Shown piece after piece: positions 27,096 to 61,011 of a DNA stretch of 63,910 nucleotides. The notes beneath the pieces are model-generated. The model ran no database searches, had not been told where the DNA came from, and saw only the letters and a list, made by a program, of their open reading frames with translations. How positions within the stretch are numbered: position 1 is the stretch's first letter; every line of letters starts with the position of its first letter. The stretch comes from Clostridia bacterium (GTDB lineage Bacteria > Bacillota > Clostridia > Christensenellales > Borkfalkiaceae): NCBI GenBank assembly GCA_017626305.1, contig JAGAIW010000067.1:1-63910 (forward strand), given 5' to 3'. A program made the position numbers and the translations under genes.

Positions 27096-28292
27096 TTATT
27101 TGATAACAATTTTAAGGTGTACTTTTTTACCCTTATGCAAAACGAATTCGCGTGCGGGAAGTCCTGCATTGACGTCGGTAACCTTATCTTCGTTGACCGA
27201 AACGCCGCCCTGTTCGATAAGTCTTCTCGCTTCGCCCTTGGATTTGGCAATCCCTGCCGCAACCATAACGTCGACGACGGTAGCGCAGTTTTCCACTTCC
27301 TTCGTCAACAGCTCTGCGTCGCCGCCGCCAAACGCGGCTTTCGCCTGTCCTTGGGCAAGCTTAGCCTGTTCTTCGCCGTGCACTTCCTTGGTAAGTTCAA
27401 ACGCAAGCGCGTCCTTTGCCGCGTTAATGCGTTCGTCCTTGTAACGGCACAGCTCTTCAATTTGTTCTAAGGGCAGGAAGGTGAGCAGTTTTAAGCACTT
27501 CTCCACGTCTTCGTCCGCCGTGTTGCGCCAGTATTGATAAAATTCGTACGGCGTGGTTTTGTTTTCGTCCAACCAAACCGCGCCCTTCGCCGTCTTGCCC
27601 ATTTTCTTACCGTCCGACGTCGTCAAAAGGGTAAACGTCATGGCAAACGCCGGCTTTTGCTCCTTGATACGGATTAAGTTTGCCCCTGCCAAAATATTGC
27701 TCCATTGATCGTCGCCGCCAAGCTCTAAACAACAGCCGTACTTTCTGTACAGCACCAAAAAGTCGTACGCTTGCATGAGCATGTAGTTGAATTCCAAAAA
27801 AGACAATCCGCGTTCTAAGCGTTGCTTAAAGCACTCCGCCGTCAGCATACGGTTGACGGAGAAATGCGCGCCCACTTCACGCAGGAAATCGATATAGTTC
27901 AAATCGAGCAGCCAGTCCCCGTTATCTACGATAACCGCCGCGTTTTCCCCTTCAAAGCTGACGAAACGGGACATTTGTTTTTTGAAACATTCCACGTTAT
28001 GGCGAATGGTTTCCTTGGTCATCATAGAGCGCATATCCGTTCTACCCGAAGGGTCGCCAACCATAGCCGTACCGCCGCCGATAAGAATAATCGGCTTATG
28101 CCCTGCCTGCTGCATATGGTGCATGGCAATCAGCTGCATAAAGTGCCCTACGTGCAACGAATCCGCCGTGGGGTCAAAGCCGATATAGAAAGGAACGCTT
28201 TCCTTGCCAAGCATATCGTACAGTTCTTCTTCAAACACCGTTTGTTTGATAAAGCCCCTTGCGCGTAAAACGTCCATTGCATTCGTTTTCAT
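27096..28292 (-). CDS. tyrS: Tyrosine--tRNA ligase
   Basis: TyrS charges tRNA-Tyr. The 398-residue class I enzyme has [19 protein letters not shown] at about 36-54 (HVGH form of HIGH), [31 protein letters not shown] with QWSNI, and [13 protein letters not shown] at about 227-239 (KMGKT, the family's KMSKS). It ends with an S4 RNA-binding domain ([19 protein letters not shown]). It is of the TyrZ-like longer group. Ribosome site AAAGGAGATACT. It is preceded by an attenuator with a Tyr-rich leader peptide. Confidence 0.97.
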
Positions 28293-28311
28293 GATAGTAT
28301 CTCCTTTGATA

Positions 28312-28345
28312 TAAAAAACGGTTTGCTTATCTTAGCGCAAACCGT
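28312..28345 (-). terminator. Attenuator terminator in the tyrS leader
   Basis: On the minus strand ACGGTTTGC, a ten-base loop, GCAAACCGT, then TTTTTT, ending about 20 nt before tyrS. Upstream, AAACCCGT (28369-28376) can pair with the 5' arm (ACGGTTT, one bulged C) and so form an antiterminator. Confidence 0.85.
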
Positions 28346-28384
28346 CCGTTTTTCTTTGTGATTTGAGTACGGGTTTTTTGCGCG

Positions 28385-28462
28385 TCAAATAGTCGTATCG
28401 CCGTAATAATAGGCGTACGCATACGTTTGATAATATTCCTTTTGCCGCATAAAACCTTTCAT
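28385..28462 (-). CDS. Tyrosine-rich leader peptide of tyrS
   Basis: A 25-codon ORF lies between the tyrS promoter and the attenuator terminator. Seven tyrosines fall at residues 10, 11, 14, 16, 18, 19 and 20, in the run EYYQTYAYAYYYG. The stop codon is 9 nt before the antiterminator strand AAACCCGT. A ribosome that finishes the peptide would cover that strand and permit termination; one stalled at Tyr codons would leave it free and prevent termination. The ATG lies 9 nt after the -10 box, so the leader mRNA has almost no untranslated 5' end and no ribosome site. Confidence 0.82.
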   Translation of the reverse strand: MKGFMRQKEYYQTYAYAYYYGDTTI

Positions 28463-28471
28463 AGTACTTTC

Positions 28472-28500
28472 ATTGTACACGCTTTTTATTTCTTTGTCAA
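28472..28500 (-). promoter_or_regulatory. Sigma-A promoter of tyrS and its leader
   Basis: TTGACA-N17-TACAAT on the minus strand, 200 nt before tyrS. Confidence 0.88.
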
Positions 28501-28569
28501 GCATTTGAAAGGTTTTTCTATGAAAAAAGAACGATTTGGAAAAACCAAACCGTCCTTTTGCTTTTCATT

Positions 28570-30369
28570 TTACGCCGTCTTTTTAATGCCCCATTTCCTG
28601 TACTGCTGCACACCGCTTTCCGTCGCGTATTTCGCCGTAACCGTCAGCGTGTTCCCGTCAATTTCAAAATCCGCCCAAGAGCTGACATTAGAAGACAGCA
28701 CGTATTTATACAACGCCCCTTCTTCCATGCTATACGGCGAACGAGTTTGATTGCCCGCAGGTCCGTTCATTAAGTACAAAACGCCATCGGGGTTTACCGA
28801 ATACTCTATACCGTTTACCGTTTCCCACGTTTCCGTGGTCGTTTCACAATCCTCGTTAATGGGTAGCGTACGGGAAATCAAATGGTCGTGTCCTTGCAAA
28901 ACGACGTCCACACCGTACTGAGCAAAAAGCTTGCTAAGCTGATTGCGCAACGCCATCGATTGCGGTTTTCTGTCTGGTCTAATTCCCCATTGTCCGGCGG
29001 AGTACATTGGACAATGCATAGCCACAAACGTCCACGTACAGGTATTATTTTTTAATTCGTTTACCAACCATTCATACTGCGCGCCGTCCAGCCCACCGCT
29101 GCCGTTTGTGTTGGTGTTCAGCAGCAAGAATTTGGCGTTGCCGTACTCAAAGCTGAAATAATATCCCGTAGTCGTTGTTTGCTCGGGAAATTTGTTATGG
29201 AAATGCTCGAACATTTCGTTTTCTCCACCATACCACGCCATTTGTTCGTGATTACCCGAAACAGGCATAACAGGCAATTTAGACAAGTAAGAAAAATTAC
29301 TATCCACCATATTATCCCATTGCCATTCGTATTTGGGATTATTCGTCATGTCCCCCGTATGCACGGCAAAATCGGTTGCGCCGACAATATTTGAAAGCAC
29401 CTGCTTATAATATGCACCGCTCCCGTCCGACGCGGTATCTACTTGCGAATCGCTGACGTGAGTAAAGGTAAATTTGGTAGCGTTGGGGTCTTTGGTTTGT
29501 ATACCCGTTGTCTCCGTACCGATTTCCGCATATTTATCGTACGCCCTGTACGTATACGTAGAAGACGCGTCTAATTTTATATCCACCTTAGATACCCAGT
29601 AGGCGAGCTGTTGGTCGTTTTCGTCGTACGTTTTATATTGCTTAGATATCAGCGTATACTCTTCCCAGCTCCCTGAAAGCGTATCGCCTTTTTTTATTTG
29701 AATTACGGCGCGCAAGGGTTTCTCGTCCGTATTGTACGTAAAGCCGTATACCGATTGCTTGGAATCGTACATGGTAACCGTCAAGGAAGTCGCCTTATAT
29801 TGCGGCTTATCCGCATCAGGTATCGGGGTCAACGGTTCGCCTGCCCAAAAGGTTTCTCCGTTCCCCTTTGCACCACATACGCACGATTTATAATATTCGG
29901 TATTCTTTTCTAGCGTAGGCTCGGTCTTTATGTATTGCGGTTCGGCAACTTCTTGGTTATATACGCAATCTCCCAGCTCATCGTCATAAAATACGTGATA
30001 ATCCAGCCCTTTTTTTCCGCAACGCACGCACGATAAATAATACTCTGCGCCCCGTTGACAGTTTGCAGGAGCTTTAAAATATTCGTCCGCCATTACTTTT
30101 TCCGTATAGGAATGCCAAAGCTGCTTGCCCTCCGCAAAGCTTTCTTCGCCTTTTTCGCCACATTCACAGCTATAATAATATCTTGCGGCATTCTCGCAAT
30201 CCGGTTCCGATTTGAGATATTCCTCTGCTACGTTTTTTTCGGTAAATGCATGCGTATGCGACGAATTGCCGAAAGAGCTGCCGTCGTTTCCGCCGCCGCA
30301 GGCCGTCATAAACAAGCTGCCCGCCGCTAATAACAACGCCAAAATTCGACTTGCTTTGTTTGCTTTCAT
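28570..30369 (-). CDS. Surface metallophosphoesterase lipoprotein
   Basis: A 599-residue exported lipoprotein. The signal peptide (about 1-24) ends in the lipobox FMTAC with a GGG linker. Residues about 35-215 hold three repeats of about 60 residues with a Tyr/Cys pattern such as YYYSCECGEKG, YYLSCVRCGKKG and YYKSCVCGAKG. A purple-acid-phosphatase-type beta domain follows. The calcineurin-like phosphatase domain has FTHVSDSQ, VHTGDMTNN, VSGNHEQM, VAMHCPMYS and LQGHDHL with all usual metal ligands. The substrate is unknown; surface location suggests phosphate scavenging or nucleotide cleavage. The start follows AAAAGGAGAG. Its promoter spacer contains a 12-base homopolymer. Confidence 0.88.
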   Translation of the reverse strand: MKANKASRILALLLAAGSLFMTACGGGNDGSSFGNSSHTHAFTEKNVAEEYLKSEPDCENAARYYYSCECGEKGEESFAEGKQLWHSYTEKVMADEYFKAPANCQRGAEYYLSCVRCGKKGLDYHVFYDDELGDCVYNQEVAEPQYIKTEPTLEKNTEYYKSCVCGAKGNGETFWAGEPLTPIPDADKPQYKATSLTVTMYDSKQSVYGFTYNTDEKPLRAVIQIKKGDTLSGSWEEYTLISKQYKTYDENDQQLAYWVSKVDIKLDASSTYTYRAYDKYAEIGTETTGIQTKDPNATKFTFTHVSDSQVDTASDGSGAYYKQVLSNIVGATDFAVHTGDMTNNPKYEWQWDNMVDSNFSYLSKLPVMPVSGNHEQMAWYGGENEMFEHFHNKFPEQTTTTGYYFSFEYGNAKFLLLNTNTNGSGGLDGAQYEWLVNELKNNTCTWTFVAMHCPMYSAGQWGIRPDRKPQSMALRNQLSKLFAQYGVDVVLQGHDHLISRTLPINEDCETTTETWETVNGIEYSVNPDGVLYLMNGPAGNQTRSPYSMEEGALYKYVLSSNVSSWADFEIDGNTLTVTAKYATESGVQQYRKWGIKKTA

Positions 30370-30398
30370 AGTTATCTCTCCTTTTTCTTTTTGACTAC

Positions 30399-30431
30399 AT
30401 TTTAAACCGTACCCCCCCCCCCCGTTGTCAA
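30399..30431 (-). promoter_or_regulatory. Promoter of the phosphatase lipoprotein gene with a homopolymer spacer
   Basis: On the minus strand TTGACA (30426-30431) and TAAAAT (30399-30404) are separated by 21 nt, of which 12 are consecutive G. Loss of four G would restore the ideal 17-nt spacing. Confidence 0.6.
30412..30423. repeat. Homopolymer tract C12 (G12 on the coding strand)
   Basis: Twelve consecutive C, the longest such run I saw. It lies inside the -35/-10 spacer of the lipoprotein promoter. Tract length may be uncertain in assembly. Confidence 0.9.
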
Positions 30432-30498
30432 GGGAAAAACGTAAGGATTTTTCGGTAATTTGATAAGATTGCGGACGTTTAAAAGCTTTTTCCAAAAC

Positions 30499-60891: not shown

Positions 60892-61011
60892 GCGCAAACT
60901 GCTTTTATCGCATTTGTTTGCATTCTATATTATAAAGTATAAATCGGTTTCTGTCAAGAGTTCAGAAGTTTTTTCTTTGAAAAAGCTTATAATTATGTTG
61001 AAAACGCAAAC
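60892..61011. promoter_or_regulatory. CGCAAACT/GTTTGC motifs in the divergent uronate control region
   Basis: CGCAAACT occurs at 60892-60899 and 61004-61011, and the reverse GTTTGC within GCATTTGTTTGC at about 60911-60922, just after the GH2 -10 box. The third copy lies between a TTGAAA and a TATAAT on the plus strand (60998-61025). These could be operators of a local regulator, none of which is encoded in the window. Confidence 0.35.
60929..60957 (-). promoter_or_regulatory. Sigma-A promoter of the GH2-uxuA-SDR operon
   Basis: TTGACA-N17-TATAAT on the minus strand. Confidence 0.88.

Follow-up and report, generated by a model that had tools for sequence, protein, structure and literature searches.

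A putative tyrosine-codon attenuator on a near-leaderless mRNA upstream of tyrS in a family of Clostridia

The tyrS gene in the window, the whole 63,910-nucleotide stretch of DNA that was analysed, is probably under ribosome-mediated transcription attenuation, charged tRNA-Tyr being sensed through the Tyr codons of a short ORF on a near-leaderless mRNA. We give this reading a probability of about 0.88. The ORF, its Tyr content, its placement, the terminator and two competing helices are borne out by sequence and by comparison among relatives, and the element appears to work like a classical leader-peptide attenuator, all of the sequence-level features tested being present. An earlier reading of the same DNA, made without database searches (the sequence-only reading), had described a consensus promoter and, behind it, an ORF of 25 codons, seven of them Tyr codons within residues 10-20. 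Inspection of the window sequence confirms each of these and adds that the whole feature, 28500-28292, lies on the minus strand. Its parts are as follows.

28495-28500, minus strand: -35 box TTGACA, a consensus match seen in the sequence
28472-28477, minus strand: -10 box TACAAT, seen in the sequence with a 17-nt spacer from the -35 box
28385-28462, minus strand: leader peptide ORF MKGFMRQKEYYQTYAYAYYYGDTTI, 25 codons plus TGA, from sequence and comparison
28446-28456, minus strand: strand 1, GGUUUUAUGCG, codons 3-6, from the minimum-energy fold; predicted to pair with strand 2 when uncovered
28403-28435, minus strand: Tyr-codon run, codons 10, 11, 14, 16, 18, 19 and 20, from sequence
28369-28383, minus strand: strand 2 (antiterminator strand), GCGCAAAAAACCCGU, duplex p 0.013 in the window leader
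28335-28345, minus strand: strand 3, the terminator 5' arm, ACGGUUUGCGC, from sequence and the duplex test
28313-28326, minus strand: strand 4, the terminator 3' arm, GCAAACCGU, with the U run, from sequence
28301-28305, minus strand: tyrS Shine-Dalgarno AGGAG, from sequence
27096-28292, minus strand: tyrS, tyrosine--tRNA ligase, 398 aa, TIGR00234 at 425 bits (cut-off 114)

The leader ORF opens with an ATG at 28462, 9 nt past the -10 box, and closes with a TGA at 28387-28385; Tyr makes up 7 of its 25 residues. Strand 2 starts 19 nt past the last Tyr codon. The intrinsic terminator (ACGGUUUGCGC...GCAAACCGU plus U run, 28345-28313) has a folding energy of -12.7 kcal/mol and lies 20 nt before the tyrS ATG, where the sequence-only reading had placed it, and TIGR00234 secures the identity of the gene. 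That reading had also paired a segment behind the ORF with the 5' arm of the terminator. The antiterminator itself stands, but its main helix is formed by GCGCAAA (28383-28377) with UUUGCGC (28341-28335), and the CCGU:ACGG pairing within AAACCCGT is an extension of this helix only. Taken alone, the strand-1 duplex of the window leader reaches a p of 0.066.

For the comparison, 61 relatives and public species genomes supplied tyrS loci, of which 80 were kept, and 60 upstream regions were added by a search across 301 genomes of the family, 281 of them with tyrS. In all, 170 loci gave 151 distinct tyrS upstream regions after removal of 17 duplicates and 2 that were too short. Leader ORFs were chosen by position only, as those with an ATG 4-12 nt past a sigma-70-like -10 box, at least 10 codons and an end before tyrS. 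A promoter was seen in 99 of the 151 regions and a position-picked ORF in 35, which encode 33 distinct peptides. At least three Tyr residues are found in 31 of these 33, and Tyr accounts for 149 residues or 19.4% of the peptides compared to 2.8% in frames +1/+2, a 6.8-fold enrichment; the second most enriched residue, Asn, reaches 2.6-fold. The statistics include L060, which has no Tyr, and L100, which has four but comes from an AT-rich Clostridium outside the tree, and neither is taken as a member. L089, a weak case with two Tyr, was kept in the tests of the RNA switch, and L148, the peptide of which is identical to that of L046, was dropped from them.

The distance between the -10 box and the ATG is 9 nt in 14 leaders, 6 nt in 14 and 7 nt in 5, which covers all 33 although 4-12 nt had been allowed, and so leaves about 0-3 nt of mRNA before the start codon. 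Judged by this spacing, the leader mRNA would be near-leaderless, and what had been proposed from the window alone is a regularity of the 33 distinct cases. Seventeen of the leaders align without gaps over codons 1-18, with ATG at codon 1 in 17/17. An internal ATG at codon 5, which has AAAGG just upstream, was considered as the start and rejected, being present in 3/17. Tyr occupies columns 11, 16 and 18 in 17/17 aligned leaders and column 14 in 16/17. The codons TAT and TAC are mixed at columns 14 (8/8), 16 (5/12) and 18 (11/6), while column 11 is TAT in all 17.

Because an automatic search overlooked the terminators of three leaders and misplaced others, terminators were set by eye in 33 leaders; some of them, such as those of L011 and L057, have poor U runs. 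Against dinucleotide shuffles, the antiterminator duplex between the post-Tyr segment and the terminator 5' arm has a mean z of -1.76 and the duplex of the ORF strand with strand 2 a mean z of -1.43, pooled values that overstate independence because the leader sequences are related. The antiterminator duplex is significant by itself (p<=0.05) in 18/33 leaders and misses this level in 15/33, with z >= 0 in L089, L128, L133, L138, L140 and L166; a first automatic version of the test was weaker and was passed in 6/31. For the ORF strand and strand 2, the level is reached in 10/33 leaders and missed in 23/33.

A permutation test was performed on 23 representatives with less than 70% identity, using 20,000 permutations. 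Own 2:3 duplexes average -13.7 kcal/mol versus -11.6 kcal/mol for permuted partners, and own 1:2 duplexes -15.8 versus -12.1 kcal/mol, with P = 5e-5, the permutation floor, in both cases (n=23); a leader's own partner ranks best in just 4/23 for each of the two helices. The covariation can be read from the letters of the 2:3 helix, which are GCGCAAA:UUUGCGC in the window, GAGCAAA:UUUGCUC in L141, GGUAAAC:GUUUACC in L164 and GUGCAGAC:GUCUGUGC in L057. The two mutually exclusive pairings are kept despite changed sequences, and the pairing of the ORF strand with strand 2 makes the layout that of a 1:2 / 2:3 / 3:4 attenuator.

The spacing of the leaders provides a further line of evidence. In the 33 leaders strand 2 starts at a median distance of 20 nt past the end of the Tyr run, with a median absolute deviation (MAD) of 2 and an interquartile range (IQR) of 17-21, whereas its distance from the stop codon has a MAD of 10 and an IQR of -13 to +6. 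The standard deviations differ little, 13.3 nt for the Tyr run and 16.6 nt for the stop, and are large because three misplaced rows inflate them: in L027, L128 and L137, strand 2 was placed inside or before the Tyr run owing to self-complementary GCG stretches, and these rows were kept in the medians. When strand 2 was sought only beyond the front of the ribosome in the 23 representatives, the MADs were 2 (Tyr run) and 8 (stop). A fixed distance between the Tyr run and strand 2 is what would be predicted for a ribosome that stalls just short of strand 2. Aligned relatives had been expected from the window sequence to share the Tyr-rich ORF, the position of its stop and both pairings; the ORF is retained in part of them and both pairings are kept, but the stop drifts.

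Stalling was modelled on the window leader by masking 13 nt from the first base of the A-site codon. Whichever Tyr codon occupies the A site, the modelled antiterminator segment has -15 to -25 kcal/mol compared to -12.7 for the terminator, and once the ribosome is past codon 23 (codon 24 on) it has -4 kcal/mol. With the assumed footprint, a ribosome at the stop codon costs the antiterminator more than 2 kcal/mol in 29/33 leaders, an energy loss that illustrates the model and does not test it, as it was computed without a shuffled control. In the exceptions, L057, L143, L146 and L155, the stop-bound ribosome would fall just short of strand 2, and the larger loss is not seen because strand 2 starts at or beyond the edge of the assumed footprint.

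The attenuator reading of the leader is therefore supported by Tyr enrichment, by the helices, to which the 1:2 pairing is an addition of ours, and by the distance ruler; from these we infer the transcription start, translation, stalling and a response to tyrosine. The transcript would start at the leader AUG or no more than about 3 nt from it, and ribosomes would therefore load on an almost leaderless RNA. If charged tRNA-Tyr were scarce, the ribosome would stall in the Tyr run and strand 2, lying just ahead, would stay free to pair with strand 3, and tyrS would be transcribed. With plentiful charged tRNA-Tyr the ribosome would move on and cover strand 2, and strands 3 and 4 would form the terminator. 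If no ribosome were present, strand 1 would bind strand 2 and the terminator would form as well.

Some residues other than Tyr are also kept among the 17 aligned leaders, namely Phe4 (17/17), Asn8 (16/17), Gly9 (13/17, encoded by four different Gly codons), Ile13 (15/17) and Ala15 (15/17). This conservation outside the Tyr codons would fit an arrest peptide, in which stalling would depend on the nascent chain as well as on empty Tyr codons, perhaps as a way to sense free tyrosine, and the RNA switch downstream would be unchanged. We regard this as unlikely. The conservation of Phe4, Asn8 and Ile13 is limited to the 17 aligned leaders and absent from more distant ones, the window peptide itself has QKE and no Asn-Gly, and L045, L046, L054, L141, L143, L145, L146, L150 and L155 share little besides the Tyr run. 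Moreover, strand 1 can account for part of the N-terminal conservation, and the chain would be merely about 10-20 residues long at the stall.

Because a ribosome halted before strand 2 would be enough, the switch could also act as a general sensor of translation rate, in which any slow ribosome, whether through an antibiotic or stress, would open tyrS and the Tyr codons would be incidental. This is less likely still, given that Tyr alone is strongly enriched and that the downstream gene is the matching synthetase. At 30 trpS, 30 hisS and 30 pheS loci no promoter-anchored short ORF was found, which argues in the same direction, but this absence is soft because the crude routine saw promoters at 1 trpS, 0 hisS and 4 pheS loci and, when applied to 30 tyrS loci (L006-L035), saw 19 promoters and recovered 6/10 known leaders.

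The attenuator would be an exception in its own genome (2.55 Mb in 189 contigs), which appears to use T-boxes at five other genes. Five T-box matches were found in the genome at E <= 0.001, one above and four below the gathering score, before leuA, thrS, pheS, cysE and ileS, and the window contig carries none of the five. Nothing in the window matches an Rfam family at its gathering score, and the T-box (RF00230) is absent from 28200-28620 at E up to 5. A T-box in the window leader was accordingly rejected on the gathering score, on E up to 5 and on the whole-genome search, in agreement with the sequence-only reading, which had seen no T-box core there. With four of five own-genome matches below the gathering score, a weak T-box, or another tRNA-binding leader too diverged for Rfam, could hide, and G039 and G058 have distant matches upstream of tyrS; we nevertheless hold such a leader to be extremely improbable, since these searches found none and the ORF nearly fills the leader. 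Among relatives, 20 outgroup loci and 20 family loci showed no tyrS T-box at the gathering score, a strict threshold below which four of the five own-genome T-boxes fall, and none lies within 1 kb upstream of tyrS among the matches listed for 61 genomes at E <= 0.001. The matches in G039:C115 and G058:C6, from two other families of the order, are on the tyrS strand, some 1.2-1.3 kb upstream of the gene, and perhaps belong to an operon in which tyrS comes later.

Among named records, the nearest relatives of the genome are uncultured Clostridia, several of them from deer and sheep guts. A profile of the 17 aligned peptides, searched against 57 genomes of the genus, gave some match at E <= 5 in 38. 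In 12 genomes the match has E <= 2.7e-10 and lies before tyrS, all 12 peptides being part of the profile, as is the window peptide, matched at E 2.7e-10. G001, the peptide of which is not in the profile, has a match before tyrS at E 0.02. All 13 convincing matches (13/13) among the 57 genomes thus precede tyrS, and the profile found no leader at other genes of the genus in these genomes; the weaker matches (E >= 0.029) are on another contig than tyrS or 60 kb off, where the position of tyrS is known. The remaining 44/57 genomes have no convincing leader, and the leader is therefore dispensable; in relatives that lack it, tyrS is preceded by a promoter and a short 5' UTR. Lack of conservation in relatives, which had been named at the outset as speaking against an attenuator, does apply to these 44 genomes, where we read it as loss, while the leader is kept elsewhere.

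In a quick tree of 98 TyrRS proteins, from which L071-L115 were left out and in which the named outgroup does not form one side, 33/33 leader rows fall into one 78-row clade (SH-aLRT 99) of the Clostridia family. Within this clade they are interspersed with rows that lack the leader, and at least 15 changes are needed, a count that cannot separate gain from loss. We favour one origin with many losses, because leader rows are basal in several subclades and because terminators appear to have been left behind without an ORF. The number of apparent losses in a single genus makes it possible to test the worth of attenuating an essential synthetase. In L021, L055 and L058 a promoter and a CGGUUUG-type hairpin precede tyrS and the Tyr ORF is gone, and in L055 the U run is apparently lost too; these are possibly decaying attenuators. 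Two tyrS matches per assembly are present in G009 (L011 and L135, one with the leader and one without) and in G008, which may reflect binning contamination.

In six leaders of other genera (L138, L139, L164, L165, L166 and L169), a TTGCNN-N17-TANAAT pair lies between the terminator and tyrS, which suggests a basal tyrS expression that would bypass the switch. These promoter-like pairs, and the many close relatives with just a promoter and a short 5' UTR, would also suit a chance short ORF before an ordinary terminator with tyrS read some other way, but the Tyr enrichment of 31/33 position-picked ORFs and the 20 nt between terminator and tyrS ATG in the window, too little for another promoter, leave this hardly credible.

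The near-leaderless start of the attenuator may belong to a wider pattern. The own genome has 32 instances of the arrangement TTGACA-N16-18-TANNNT-N5-9-ATG versus 4 of the backwards pattern, and at 12/27 readable sites a frame of 96-501 codons opens at that very ATG (e.g. L176, L183, L185, L186 and L194). Leaderless genes therefore look common here, as do leaderless mRNAs in this Clostridia lineage. Leaderless genes in Firmicutes are reported to be concentrated in Lactobacillales and Mycoplasma (PMC3160421), and a conserved near-leaderless start would therefore add a lineage. A bolder proposal is that the leaders form a leaderless class of their own, in which 70S loading on the 5'-terminal AUG keeps the first ribosome close behind RNA polymerase and the nascent chain (with its conserved F..ENG.YYIYAY) aids stalling, such that both Tyr-tRNA charging and the state of leaderless initiation would be sensed by an element that sits where other Firmicutes have the tyrS T-box and that has been repeatedly lost. 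We consider this tentative and rather doubtful; if true, such a dual-sensing class would let the family serve as a natural series of comparisons before and after the loss.

Classical leader-peptide attenuators include those of E. coli trp and his. In the available part of a survey of Actinobacteria, a pheST attenuator is named and attenuators of trpS and leuS are predicted in Streptomyces (PMC1262725). As far as that part goes, these systems and the tyrS leader have in common an ORF with cognate codons, an antiterminator and an intrinsic terminator that exclude each other and, in several cases, a synthetase gene downstream. The tyrS leader differs from them in its Tyr codons, its near-leaderless start and its occurrence in Clostridia. 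According to the same part of the survey, no conserved RNA structure was found for the tyrosine genes of Actinobacteria, T-boxes serve tyrosine elsewhere, and the candidate Cys leaders of Mycobacterium are without conserved terminators (PMC1262725). In bacilli, according to the sections seen of another study, a His leader peptide precedes hisS*/hisZ and replaces a T-box (PMC2965389). Like the tyrS leader, this system, to judge from those sections, places an ordinary leader peptide instead of a T-box before a Firmicute synthetase gene, but the two are unlike in the amino acid, the gene and the class concerned, and no leaderless start is mentioned there for the His leader.

For mycobacteria, attenuators with polycysteine leaderless ORFs were reportedly described by Canestrari in 2020. 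Judging by the title of that work, they resemble the tyrS leader in having a leaderless short ORF with a codon run of the sensed amino acid; the run is of Cys in the mycobacterial system and of Tyr in the tyrS leader, which has no Cys run. In Firmicutes, tyrS counts as a founding T-box gene; the B. subtilis gene was the subject of a 1992 paper. T-box control is given for tyrS of B. subtilis and Enterococcus durans in the accessible parts of two reports (PMC2494555, PMC3315439), which describe, like the reading preferred here for the Tyr leader, a tyrosine-responsive control of tyrS by a choice between terminator and antiterminator. T-box RNA binds the tRNA directly, whereas in the window leader a ribosome would read the Tyr codons. 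The tyrS decision apparently falls to a ribosome that reads Tyr codons, in a genome where T-box matches precede pheS, thrS, ileS, leuA and cysE. No Tyr leader peptide for tyrS was found in the part of the open-licence PMC literature that was surveyed. What would be new is the Tyr specificity and the near-leaderless start joined to an intrinsic terminator; the kind of system is already known.

Three further observations concern the window itself. An 11-bp inverted repeat, AAAACCTTTCA / TGAAAGGTTTT, at 28451-28461 and 28506-28516 flanks the leader promoter and is either an operator or chance; it is the longest among the 33 leaders, the next being 9 bp in L045, and is therefore not a feature of the family. 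At 60921-60957 on the minus strand, a consensus promoter has an ATG 5 nt downstream that opens a 19-codon ORF, and this ORF ends right before a Shine-Dalgarno sequence and a further ATG. Upstream of the leader, a 641-aa ORF (28570-30495, minus strand) has no NCBIfam match at E <= 0.001. It has a lipoprotein-like start and contains GNHE and GHDH, which we take to be metallophosphatase-like motifs.
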